A DNA stretch of 48,208 bases from Chloroflexota bacterium (lineage in GTDB: Bacteria; Chloroflexota; Dehalococcoidia; Bin125), in contig JAPPJZ010000015.1 of assembly GCA_028874365.1 (NCBI GenBank), positions 1 to 48,208 on the forward strand, read 5' to 3'. Shown here piece after piece: positions 5,299 through 38,520 of this stretch (position 1 is its first letter; each line of letters opens with the position of its first letter). Made by a program: the position numbers and the translations under genes. The notes beneath the pieces are model-generated. The model was not told the DNA's origin, ran no database searches, and was given only the letters and a program-made list of their open reading frames with translations.

Positions 5299-6339
5299 CT
5301 ACTGCAGCGGCAGCGGCGATTGCCACCATGCGGGTTTGTTGCTGACTTCGATCGAGGTCACCCACTTGACCCAGTTGTATCCGCGACGGCCGGGTGCGAC
5401 CAGCCTGAGGGGAAATCCGTGGCCGGATGAGAGCGGCTCGCCCGCGATGTGAGTGGCGAGGAGCAGTTGTTCCGCGTCAGCAATGGGGAATCTGCGGTCG
5501 AATCCGGTCGCGGACTGGACTACGACACTCTCTGCTTCATCTCCAACCTGGACTTGGGCCAACGCATCCGACAGTCTGACGCCGCTCCAGTCCTGGACGG
5601 TAAACCAGCCGCCGGTGCAGTCGAGTGTTGCGGTCGTGGAGCGGTTGGCGATCGTCCGGATCTCCTCGTAAGTGAGCCTCGCGGGCTCACGGACCCGCCC
5701 GTGGATGGTCAAGGTCCAATCATCCGCATCGATTCGCTGGCGGCTGTCGAAGAGCCATTGAGTGACCGGGTGCGCGTTGCCCTGTCCGCTGGCTTCCTCT
5801 CGCGAGCCGGTAAATCGGGGGCGTTGGCCGGCCACGGGCGCGGCGGCTGACGCGCCCTGCCAAAGAACGAGGCCGCCCACGCCAACAGCAATCAGCCGCA
5901 GCGCGGCGCGTCGGTTGGTGAAGTCTGTGCGCCTGACACGACGCGGCCAGCGCATGGCCGCGTGGACGATCAATGGGATGGTCAGCGCGAGACCCAGCGT
6001 CGTGTGAATGACGAGTAGCCGCGCGTTGCCGTAGAAGGGAATGTCGAGGCCGCCGCGGCCGAGGATCGCCCAGAGCGTGCCGGTGGTCAGGACGCCGACG
6101 AAGAGCAGGACGAGGACGATCGAGCCGACGGTCTCCGATGCGACGCCACGGCGCCGAAACGAGCGCAGGACGATGCGGTACTTCCAGATCACGAGGCCGA
6201 CGAGAGAGAACCCGGCGATTCCATGTAGCCAGAAGACCCACTCGCCGCCAGGTCGACCGATCGTGAACGACACCAGGCCGGAGAGTAGTTCGACGCTAAG
6301 CAAGAAGAGGATGGCGTGGTTGGTCGCGCGGGCGCTCAT
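5299..6339 (-). CDS. Membrane cytochrome b-like / sulfite-oxidase-fold molybdopterin oxidoreductase fusion
   Basis: 346 residues. Residues 1-130 hold about four membrane helices with well-placed histidines (His8, His39, His112, His126), as in diheme cytochrome b561/YedZ-like proteins. A fifth hydrophobic stretch (about 146-162) precedes an oxidoreductase molybdopterin-binding domain (about 195-346). In that domain Cys241 in TLDCTGGWF is the expected molybdenum ligand, and HGFPLRLVAPG and GYNWVKWV are conserved. It looks like a one-chain version of the MsrP/MsrQ (YedYZ) pair, with the catalytic domain probably outside the membrane. Substrate unknown. No Shine-Dalgarno; TACCGT lies 6 bases before the ATG. 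Its stop is 15 bases from the 84-aa gene, convergent. Confidence 0.85.
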   Translation of the reverse strand: MSARATNHAILFLLSVELLSGLVSFTIGRPGGEWVFWLHGIAGFSLVGLVIWKYRIVLRSFRRRGVASETVGSIVLVLLFVGVLTTGTLWAILGRGGLDIPFYGNARLLVIHTTLGLALTIPLIVHAAMRWPRRVRRTDFTNRRAALRLIAVGVGGLVLWQGASAAAPVAGQRPRFTGSREEASGQGNAHPVTQWLFDSRQRIDADDWTLTIHGRVREPARLTYEEIRTIANRSTTATLDCTGGWFTVQDWSGVRLSDALAQVQVGDEAESVVVQSATGFDRRFPIADAEQLLLATHIAGEPLSSGHGFPLRLVAPGRRGYNWVKWVTSIEVSNKPAWWQSPLPLQ

Positions 6340-6345
6340 ACGCCG

Positions 6346-6351
6346 ACGGTA
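6346..6351 (-). promoter_or_regulatory. Candidate leaderless -10 box (TACCGT) for the molybdopterin oxidoreductase
   Basis: TACCGT on the minus strand is followed by 6 bases and the ATG at 6339. No ribosome-binding site is present in the short leader. It shares the 61-base divergent gap with the argB box. No -35 element recognised. Confidence 0.35.
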
Positions 6352-6387
6352 TCGCTTTCGCCGTCAGAAGCGCTGACCATCGTGGGC

Positions 6388-6393
6388 TACGCT
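6388..6393 (+). promoter_or_regulatory. Candidate leaderless -10 box (TACGCT) for argB
   Basis: TACGCT is followed by 7 bases and the argB ATG at 6401. No Shine-Dalgarno is present, so transcription probably starts at the ATG. No -35 hexamer at the expected distance. Confidence 0.42.
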
Positions 6394-6400
6394 TGCATCC

Positions 6401-7180
6401 ATGAGCGCATCGCAGAACGGGAACGCACCGATCGTGATCAAGATCGGCGGCTCGACCCTGGGCGAGCATGACACATCGTTGTCCGACTGCGTTGAGTTAC
6501 ACCGCGAGGGTCGCCGGGTCGTGGTCGTCCACGGCGGCGGAGCGGCGGTCACCGACTGGCAGCGCAGACTCGGCGCGGAGGCGACCTGGGTCGACGGTCT
6601 GCGCTCGACGACGCCTGAGTCACTGAGCGTGGTGGTGGCGGTGCTGGCCGGGTTGATCAACAAGGAGCTGACCAGGCAGTTGCAGTCGTTGGGCGCTCAG
6701 GCCGTTGGTCTCAGCGGCGTTGACGCTGGAACGCTGTGTTCTCCGATATCTGACCGGATCGGTCTTGTCGGGGAGAGACCGCGCTGTAACCCGCGTACCT
6801 TGCGCTGGGCGTTGGATGCCGGTTTGCTGCCGGTTCTGGCTCCGGTTGGTCTCGCGAACGACCTGTCGACGACCCTGAACATCAACGCCGACGCCGCGGC
6901 CGGCGCGGTCGCCTCCGCGCTTGGCGCCTCGTCGTTGATCTTCCTGACCGACGTGGCGCAGGTGTTGGACGCTGAAGGGATGGGGATCGACTCGCTGGGC
7001 GCGGAGCGGCAACGGGAACTGATTGAGCATGACGTGATTGAGGGCGGGATGCTGCCCAAGCTGCGCGCCGGTCGCGAAGCGTACGGTTGCGGCGTCCAGG
7101 TTCGTATCGTGGACGGCAGACAACCGCGCGTCGTGCGACAGGCGGTTGACGGCGAAGAGGTGGGGACGGTCCTGTCGTGA
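6401..7180 (+). CDS. argB: Acetylglutamate kinase
   Basis: Phosphorylates N-acetylglutamate with ATP, the second arginine step and usually the one inhibited by arginine. 259 residues of the amino-acid kinase fold. The ATP-site Lys is in VIKIGGST (about 12-19), the glycine loop is VVVHGGG, the substrate/ATP segment is NINADAAAGAVA, and the second Lys is in EGGMLPKLRAG. The length suits the shorter, non-hexameric forms, and I see no clear long N-terminal helix of the arginine-sensitive type (inference). It is separated from argCJ by the two small genes and the minus-strand oxidoreductase. The UPF0182 gene starts within its stop codon. Confidence 0.95.
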   Translation: MSASQNGNAPIVIKIGGSTLGEHDTSLSDCVELHREGRRVVVVHGGGAAVTDWQRRLGAEATWVDGLRSTTPESLSVVVAVLAGLINKELTRQLQSLGAQAVGLSGVDAGTLCSPISDRIGLVGERPRCNPRTLRWALDAGLLPVLAPVGLANDLSTTLNINADAAAGAVASALGASSLIFLTDVAQVLDAEGMGIDSLGAERQRELIEHDVIEGGMLPKLRAGREAYGCGVQVRIVDGRQPRVVRQAVDGEEVGTVLS

Positions 7181-36896: not shown

Positions 36897-38045
36897 CTAG
36901 GGCGGCAGCAGCGAGTCGGCTTCGTCGGGTGAGCCGATCTCGCGTACCAACTCAACGAACTCGGGCAGAGAAGCCGTCGAGGCCCGAAGCGCCAGGAGGC
37001 GATTGCCCCATGGGCTAGGCGAGGCCGGGCTCGCGCCGTAGCCGCCGCGGAAGGCGAGGAACGCTTGATTGATCCTTCTGAATGGCCGGCCGAGATCCAT
37101 CAGCTCTTGGCGAACGTCAGCCATCAGCCGTTCCGCCTCGTCGATCCGTCTTGCAGACAGGAGGTCATCCACGTCAAGCCGAAGCTGGCGCAGGATTGGG
37201 TCGGTTGCCGCGCGAATCTCACCGCGGCGTTCGTCCTGGTCCGTGTGCGCTGCGGGGACGAACCCGGGCAACCGCGCAGCGGCTTGGCCGAGTTCATCGC
37301 CGACGATGTCGGCCACGGTTTCGTTGATCGTGCGCATGTCGGAACCGCGGCCGTAGGCCAGGCCCAGGGGATAGAAGCCGAGGTAGTGATGGGTCCATTC
37401 ATGCGCCATGATCTGCAGCGTGCTGAGATAGTCCCGCGACGAGACCACCGATGCCGGGTACAACGCCACACCGCCTACTCGTCCGACCCAGGCGGACCAA
37501 CGCCCGTCCGCTTCGATCGCCGCCTCGATGCGTTCGTACTGCTCCCGATCAATGTCTGAGGTCAACAATACGGAGCGGACCATCCGCACTTCGTCGCGAG
37601 GCGAGACAGCGAGCACATGGAGCCGTTCGCTCAGATCCACGTCGATCGGCGGCCAGACGACGCGCACGCGGCCAAAGAGCGGCAATGGCGTGTCCAGTTG
37701 CAGTTGCGAGACGGCTCGACCCAGCCGGCGTTCGAGGAGCAGCTCCGCCCGCTTGCGGTCGTGTTCATCGGTGCGGTCGAACCATCGTCGCAATATCGCC
37801 TCTTCGTCGAGGTCCGGCTCCTCTAGCCATCCGGCGACATTGGTCAACCAGCGGTTGGGCAGGTGTGTCAGTTCGTAAGACAGCAGTGAGAACCGATGCG
37901 TTTCCGTCGCGTCGGCAACGACATCACCCAGACTCGGTGTCGACTGAGCCTTCAGTGTCGAGGCAGCGAAGAGCGCCGAGGCGATGCACAGTGCGACGGT
38001 GAGCGCCGAGAGCATCAGAGCGAGGAACATGCGTCTGTCGGCCAT
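36897..38045 (-). CDS. Secreted or membrane-anchored HExxH metalloprotease-like protein
   Basis: 382 residues from the ATG at 38045. A signal anchor (about 6-30, MFLALMLSALTVALCIASAL) exports the rest. The zinc site is MAHEWTHHYLG, with His215, Glu216 and His219, followed 23 residues later by Glu242 in NETVADIVGDE, the third-ligand spacing of gluzincin peptidases. The rest is helical and acidic; I recognise no named peptidase family. The ATG has no ribosome site but TAGCAT lies exactly 7 bases upstream, which favours this start over one at 38207 that would run under the divergent RDD gene. It ends 6 bases from the convergent PBP gene. Confidence 0.75.
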   Translation of the reverse strand: MADRRMFLALMLSALTVALCIASALFAASTLKAQSTPSLGDVVADATETHRFSLLSYELTHLPNRWLTNVAGWLEEPDLDEEAILRRWFDRTDEHDRKRAELLLERRLGRAVSQLQLDTPLPLFGRVRVVWPPIDVDLSERLHVLAVSPRDEVRMVRSVLLTSDIDREQYERIEAAIEADGRWSAWVGRVGGVALYPASVVSSRDYLSTLQIMAHEWTHHYLGFYPLGLAYGRGSDMRTINETVADIVGDELGQAAARLPGFVPAAHTDQDERRGEIRAATDPILRQLRLDVDDLLSARRIDEAERLMADVRQELMDLGRPFRRINQAFLAFRGGYGASPASPSPWGNRLLALRASTASLPEFVELVREIGSPDEADSLLPP

Positions 38046-38052
38046 GGATTCG

Positions 38053-38058
38053 ATGCTA
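38053..38058 (-). promoter_or_regulatory. Candidate leaderless -10 box (TAGCAT) for the protease gene
   Basis: TAGCAT on the minus strand is followed by exactly 7 bases and the protease ATG at 38045, with no Shine-Dalgarno. It overlaps by two bases a plus-strand box for the RDD gene. Confidence 0.42.
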
Positions 38059-38062
38059 CGCT
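38057..38062 (+). promoter_or_regulatory. Candidate leaderless -10 box (TACGCT) for the RDD gene
   Basis: TACGCT is followed by 8 bases, a TTG (38071) and the ATG at 38074. The hexamer is identical to the one before argB. It overlaps the oppositely directed TAGCAT box by two bases, so the two promoters could exclude each other. Confidence 0.38.
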
Positions 38063-38073
38063 CAAGCCCGTTG

Positions 38074-38520
38074 ATGGCCCGTCCAGCGTCTGAAGCTCTG
38101 TACATTCCGGTCGTTCGCCGCGAGGCGCGCCTGGTTGCTGCGGCGATTGACTTCGTGGTGATCGGGCTGTTCAGCGCGCTCTGCGGGGCGTTTGCCGTGC
38201 TGGCCATGCTGCTCCAGGTGGATCCGCTCGAACGAGACCCGACAGCCGGAGAGTGGGGCGTCGGTTACGCGATTGCGTTGCTCTGGTTTCTGCTGTCGTC
38301 GTTGTACGCGGGGCTGGGAGCGCGGACTGTAGGTGCTCGCGCGCTTGGATTTCGGGAATTGCGGGGCGGCAGGCGGACGTTTGTCATCCGCGGGCTGATC
38401 TGGTGGCCTTCGGTTGTGCTGCTTGGCATCGGACTGTGGTGGCCGTGGATTGACGGACAGGGGCGCAGCCTGCCGGACATGCTCTCCGGCTCTCTCCTGA
38501 TCGACAGCCACGCAGCGTGA
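38074..38520 (+). CDS. RDD family membrane protein
   Basis: 148 residues from ATG 38074. Three to four membrane helices. The family residues are visible: Arg and Asp in RREARLVAAAIDF, GARTVGARALGFRELRG in the cytoplasmic loop, and the closing DGQGRSLPDMLSGS, which carries the last Asp of the RDD pattern. Function of RDD proteins is poorly known; some have been linked to ion transport. The gene diverges from the protease gene with only 28 bases between starts, and the next membrane protein starts within its stop codon, so the three probably work in one membrane process (inference). Confidence 0.85.
   Translation: MARPASEALYIPVVRREARLVAAAIDFVVIGLFSALCGAFAVLAMLLQVDPLERDPTAGEWGVGYAIALLWFLLSSLYAGLGARTVGARALGFRELRGGRRTFVIRGLIWWPSVVLLGIGLWWPWIDGQGRSLPDMLSGSLLIDSHAA

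Follow-up and report, generated by a model that had tools for sequence, protein, structure and literature searches.

How are two divergently oriented genes transcribed when only 28 bases separate their start codons? This question is raised by a locus of an uncultured member of the Dehalococcoidia (GenBank assembly GCA_028874365.1, contig JAPPJZ010000015.1), of which the whole analysed stretch of 48,208 nucleotides is referred to here as the window. A gene for a putative metalloprotease starts on the minus strand (ATG 38045-38043) and a gene for an RDD-family membrane protein on the plus strand (ATG 38074-38076), and the hexamers TAGCAT and TACGCT, which lie between them on opposite strands, overlap at two bases (TA, 38057-38058). 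An earlier inspection of the letters alone (the sequence-only reading) had proposed that the gap holds two overlapping back-to-back leaderless promoters which could act as a built-in switch, and the gap with its 28 bases, the two start codons and the two hexamers were indeed located where it had put them. We consider it likely that the gap is a bidirectional promoter of the sigma-70 type, the overlapping -10 elements of which would serve the protease gene on one side and the RDD operon on the other.

Layout of the gap and its flanking genes

The TACGCT hexamer stands 11 nt from ATG 38074 and 8 nt from an in-frame TTG at 38071, a codon that is not present in every relative. The invariant block around the two hexamers (Table 1) coincides exactly with positions -5 to -20 of both predicted promoters. 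As judged by sequence match, the overlap of -10 elements on opposite strands agrees with the definition of a bidirectional promoter used by the Grainger laboratory.

Table 1. Features of the protease/RDD locus in window coordinates.
Feature	Position	Strand	Remarks
Putative membrane/exported metalloprotease, 382 aa, N-terminal hydrophobic segment	36897-38045	minus	HExxH and downstream E
RDD-family membrane protein, 148 aa	38074-38520	plus	Pfam PF06271, E 1.1e-08
Membrane-like protein, 280 aa	38517-39359	plus	Overlaps RDD stop; membrane nature from sequence only
-10 element TAGCAT, protease promoter	38053-38058	minus	7 nt before ATG, leaderless geometry
Extended -10 element TGC-TACGCT, RDD promoter	38054-38062	plus	Invariant in 15/15 genomes, ATG at spacer 11
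Invariant 16-bp block, both -10 elements and 3 bases on each side	38050-38065		Minus-strand reading TTGAGCGTAGCATCGA
Predicted mRNA start of the protease gene, A of ATG (leaderless)	38045	minus	Inferred from genome-wide spacing peak
Predicted mRNA start of the RDD gene, 4-nt leader	38070	plus	7-nt spacer as on the protease side

With respect to the protease, H215, E216, H219 and E242 are invariant in 14 aligned sequences, in agreement with the gluzincin-like combination of an HExxH motif and a downstream glutamate. No Pfam or NCBIfam family was found above the cut-offs for the 382-aa protein and no peptidase among its sequence matches in the PDB, and its structure model is of low confidence (pLDDT 55.8). 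The former designation as an exported protease is based on the invariant HExxH motif and the N-terminal hydrophobic segment. The family (window 36900-38045) has invariant HExxH and RTINE motifs within the genus, and a search of named genomes found relatives in other Chloroflexota at 53 loci. On the other side of the gap, the gene for the 280-aa protein, for which no family match was found, is likely to be part of the same operon as the RDD gene.

Conservation within and beyond the genus

The genus set consisted of the genome of the window (3.12 Mb, G000) and 14 relatives, i.e., 15 genomes. The protease gene was found in all 15 of them, and each contains one mismatch-free copy of the 16-mer; further matches with one mismatch occur once each in G000 and G013, and the reversed pattern taken as a control gave a single match among the 15 genomes, in G009. 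When the actual codons were checked, the spacer between TACGCT and the RDD ATG was found to be 11 nt in all 15 genomes, and that between TAGCAT and the protease ATG 7 nt in 14 of the 15, with G004 as the exception. Conservation of the gap in related genomes, which had been suggested as a check on the sequence-only reading, is thus confirmed, the 28-base spacing being kept in 14 and the 16-mer in 15 of 15 genomes.

Outside the block the bases of the gap vary within the genus, except for C38069 and, with the contig end of G004 excluded, G38046; the positions just before ATG 38074 (38066-38068 and 38070-38073) are variable. In the two flanking genes, the third base is invariant at only 2 of 83 four-fold degenerate sites (14 uninterrupted genomes, invariant amino acids only), which means that silent sites near the gap are nearly saturated. 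Since the block is conserved in all 15 genomes while these nearby silent sites are nearly saturated, it constitutes a real signal. In 13 of the 15 genomes the 200 nt before the RDD ATG contain no other TANNNT hexamer, the exceptions being G004 (in its inserted end) and G008 (at 161 nt). The same is true of the protease ATG in 13 of the 14 genomes without the interruption, where the exception is G013 (at 34 nt).

The genes for PBP, the protease, the RDD protein, the second membrane protein and an acyl-CoA dehydrogenase are found together in 13 of the 14 relatives. In G003 the outer two of these five syntenic genes are cut by contig ends, and the RDD start of the window corresponds in the alignment to an in-frame ATG that lies 12 nt further into the gene. 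In G004 the protease and RDD genes reside on separate contigs with an insertion-like break between the box and the protease ATG; the 16-mer remains on the RDD side of the break, and the G004 stretch contains only PBP and protease of the five genes searched. As the break cuts the protease gene off the block, the pairing is not indispensable in G004. The breakpoints (L065 1-64 and L216 1-62, at the contig ends of C22 and C37) have near-identical inverted ends, of which the genome contains 4 copies, each lying at positions 32-54 of a contig; the two contig ends share 8 host bases, and the ends of the presumed insertion element bear an outward TATAAT.

How much of this overlap might be due to chance can be estimated from the frequency of the hexamer. 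In about 448 kb of the genome (the window plus 400 kb of the same genome) TANNNT occurs 992 times on both strands, i.e., 1.1 times per kb and strand, and 110 of these hexamers (11%) have an inverted TANNNT partner sharing the TA. The overlap in a single genome, being not far above chance, is therefore weak evidence; its recurrence throughout the genus exceeds chance by far. A survey of divergent gene pairs comprised 57 pairs and left out the protease/RDD pair, because the RDD gene was absent from the gene calls.

In three genomes of the same family outside the genus (G016, G017 and G018; start codons judged by eye) the divergent pair is kept and the 16-bp block is absent. Between the genes of G016 lies CCTATCATAGG, with overlapping inverted hexamers TATCAT and TATGAT that share five bases (L076 9212-9222) and with longer leaders. 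No fitting TANNNT was seen in the gap of G017, and the gap of G018 contains one TANNNT, which is located 7 nt before an ATG outside the RDD frame, and no fitting boxes. In G020, which is outside the family, no RDD match was found beside the protease gene. Of the 53 loci from the named-genome search, 15 have a divergent RDD match, 13 of these with and 2 without the 16-mer; the flanks of loci L115-L151 from that search had no match to the RDD protein of the window at E 1e-3.

Two further divergent pairs were noted. In G000 (C2, ATGs 16128 minus and 16148 plus) a gap of 19 nt contains a second overlapping pair with the shared box TACCCTA and spacers of 8 and 6; this pair (L080 16129-16147) is kept in all 15 genomes, with only TAG..TA of the shared box being invariant, and is flanked by a phosphomannomutase-like gene, so named from its sequence, and an unknown gene. 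Within the window itself, a divergent pair at 6339-6401 has a gap of 61 nt with non-overlapping boxes of the leaderless type (TACCGT on the minus and TACGCT on the plus strand), of which the plus box TACGCT is lost in some relatives.

Promoter classes on the two sides

In the 448 kb, 378 genes were called and the occurrence of TANNNT before start codons was profiled. Of 425 near-start ATGs, 21 have the hexamer at spacer 6 and 9 have it at spacer 7, as compared to 0.0% of 2159 internal ATGs at those spacers, and 49 of the 378 genes have a candidate start with TANNNT 5-8 nt upstream. Because of this peak at 6-7 nt before starts, a signal of leaderless promoters can be considered present in the genome. 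The last base of the spacer is usually C (0.71 of 28 spacers of 6 nt and 0.64 of 11 spacers of 7 nt), and this also applies to the protease gene. With TAGCAT at spacer 7, and thus within the range of 6-7 nt, in 14 of 15 genomes (G004 being interrupted), the protease side has the geometry of a leaderless promoter. The RDD side does not, as its spacer of 11 in all 15 genomes, found for 1 of 425 ATGs in the genome profile, lies off the genome-wide peak, which makes a strictly leaderless RDD mRNA unlikely. Of the two leaderless promoters originally proposed, the one on the protease side is therefore retained and the one on the RDD side is not.

Extended -10 promoters have the form TGN-TANNNT. On the RDD side, TGCTACGCT places TGC directly before TACGCT and thereby shows this signature. 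The RDD mRNA probably starts at 38070 with a 4-nt leader; the base at 38070 is always a purine (G in 9 genomes, A in 6) and is preceded by C in all 15 genomes.

A search of the genus for cobalamin riboswitches gave 24 matches in 14 of the 15 genomes, and TGN-TANNNT is present just upstream of 23 of them; the odd one out is the weakest match (L315, 44.3 bits), which lies at a contig end and is not preceded by any TANNNT within 45 nt. The one-mismatch copy of the 16-mer in G000 (L033 1501-1516, corresponding to C14:136737-136752) is located in the RDD orientation directly before one of these riboswitches (RF00174, 93.8 bits, L033 1518-1729), and its mismatch removes the last T of the -10 element in the opposite direction. 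This copy provides independent support for the RDD-side promoter. The presence of overlapping back-to-back promoters is accordingly well supported, on the one hand by their conservation and on the other by promoters of matching class elsewhere in the genus, and positions, spacings, conservation and these promoter classes are direct observations.

The proposed bidirectional promoter, its alternatives and known systems

From this arrangement we infer the start sites, promoter activity and mutual exclusion as follows. With the -10 elements on opposite strands sharing TA (A-TGC-TA-CGC-T), RNA polymerase would be able to bind in either direction. In the leftward direction, it would produce a leaderless mRNA for the putative protease, starting at ATG 38045, and in the rightward direction a short-leader mRNA of the RDD membrane operon with its start near 38070, and there would be room for one polymerase at a time. 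According to the sequence-only reading, opening of the site by one polymerase precludes its opening by a second; this is physically reasonable, but it holds for any promoters so close to each other. At ordinary strengths the two directions would most likely fire independently, and they might become coupled only if one of them were strongly activated.

That mutual exclusion turns the protease and the membrane module into alternative states, i.e., that the gap is a built-in switch, appears decidedly unlikely. Predicted starts 25 bp apart would make simultaneous occupancy impossible, but exclusion by itself confers no memory, and the E. coli cases in the consulted part of PMC12825309 showed no competition at basal activity; since competition appears there only on activation, a switch would need an activator of one side. 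Alternatively, TACGCT might be a chance match and the protease promoter the only real one, with the RDD gene transcribed from elsewhere. The distance of TACGCT to the ATG (11 nt), which does not fall into the leaderless peak, as well as the 11% of TANNNT that have an inverted partner by chance, might be taken in this sense. However, no base of TGC, TACGCT or CAA varies among the 15 genomes, in 13 of which the 200 nt upstream of the RDD ATG offer no other TANNNT, and nearly the same sequence is found before a cobalamin riboswitch, so that this explanation is very improbable. The invariance of the block could also stem from coding if either gene started further upstream and the block formed part of an N-terminal extension; it is open in both gene frames in the genome of the window, with in-frame plus-strand ATGs at 38053 and 38044. 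However, silent positions inside the block are invariant as well, in contrast to the four-fold sites of the genes, and the bases just before ATG 38074 vary. A coding origin is thus extremely improbable and was rejected on the basis of the silent-site comparison (2 of 83 sites unchanged in the flanking genes).

While the bidirectional promoter thus remains the preferred explanation, the 16 bases seem more conserved than two core promoters need, since by our own count these would account for about 7 of its 16 positions and leave unexplained the nine others, at 38050-38052, 38056, 38059, 38060 and 38063-38065. A conservation control drew on those 86 of 159 called genes which had matches of at least 45% identity near the N-terminus in enough genomes for alignments of at least 6 rows. 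Among the 15 upstream regions represented by at least 11 genomes, a tRNA gene (run of 75) is the single case above 16, and the next longest run called noncoding is 7; in regions with only 6-8 genomes, noncoding-called invariant runs of 20, 20, 18 and another of 16 were found. In two other leaderless promoters (13 and 11 genomes) 4 of the 6 core bases are fixed, and of the 10 bases upstream 3 and 2, respectively; the protease promoter in the same comparison (13 genomes) kept 6 of 6 core and 7 of 10 upstream bases. Two promoters of the leaderless type in the 6-8-genome regions kept 7 and 8 of 10 upstream bases, like the protease promoter.

A tentative and less likely explanation is that the 16 bp are also, or even mainly, the site of a putative regulator (loose dyad TYGA-N8-TCRA) lying over both promoters, such that one protein would set or flip the direction. 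In line with this, bases which usually vary in core promoters are invariant in the block, the corresponding positions vary in the riboswitch promoters of the genus, and G000 contains 42 matches at up to 3 mismatches in comparison to 13 for the reversed control. However, the regulon search with the exact 16-mer in the 15 genus genomes found one copy per genome and no further exact sites, so that no regulon of exact sites is seen. The 42 near matches in G000 correspond to 30 loci, of which 29 including the site itself were inspected, and of the 28 besides the site (out of 41 matches) 20 fall in frames whose coding score is high (at least 20), and the other 8, among them the one-mismatch copy before the riboswitch, have a low score. 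In addition, the dyad is equally explained by the symmetry of two facing promoters. The more specific notion of a composite block, in which the bases not needed by the two-way promoter would be recognised by a dedicated regulator or by a specialised sigma factor selecting the direction, is rather unlikely; if it were true, the membrane protease and the RDD module would be alternatives governed by a single unit that is unchanged throughout the genus.

With respect to the bidirectional promoter as such, conservation alone indicates that an overlapping two-way promoter has been kept by selection between two protein-coding genes of an uncultured lineage. Conservation likewise indicates that the mRNAs made in both directions from such a promoter can be leaderless or almost so, and the extra invariance provides a 28-bp target for asking whether there is more to a two-way promoter than a pair of promoters with bases in common. 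The class of bidirectional promoters in which -10 elements overlap was reportedly described by Warman et al. in 2021.

In the consulted parts of the more recent literature, bidirectional promoters are defined by divergent starts 7-25 bp apart (Middlemiss et al. 2023, PMC10268837), with 18 bp as the commonest start distance and 10 and 23 bp being also common (Warman et al. 2026, PMC12825309). According to the latter source, five bidirectional promoters of E. coli were tested and their basal activity proved too low for competition, and activating one direction can repress the other. Like these known promoters, the gap described here has opposite-strand -10 elements that share bases and divergent genes on both sides. 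Its predicted start distance of 25 bp (38045/38070) is at the edge of the range given in the consulted part of PMC10268837, and with two shared bases it would come nearest to the 23-bp class in that of PMC12825309, as estimated by our own geometry. It is unlike them in that one mRNA is predicted to be leaderless and the other to have a 4-nt leader, in that 16 bp are invariant throughout a genus, and in its occurrence in uncultured Dehalococcoidia. The promoter class is therefore already known, and the protease/RDD gap is an exceptionally conserved case of it, not a demonstrated switch.

Among the titles and abstract openings surveyed, no literature on two-way promoters of leaderless genes was found, which is not proof of absence. 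Leaderless genes with TANNNT about 12 nt upstream were reported for 4 of 12 Chloroflexi genomes (BMC Genomics 2011, PMC3160421, as far as its consulted part goes). The protease side resembles them in its TAGCAT, its spacer of 7 and its ATG, whereas the RDD side differs by its spacer of 11 and its extended -10 element. The same part of that source gives TAtaaT for medium-GC Chloroflexi, in contrast to the middle bases here, which vary as reported there for high-GC groups. The RDD side in turn shares with extended -10 promoters the signature in TGCTACGCT, which is also found before the cobalamin riboswitches of the genus; in contrast to these riboswitch promoters, where the letters of the hexamer vary, they are fixed at the protease/RDD gap.
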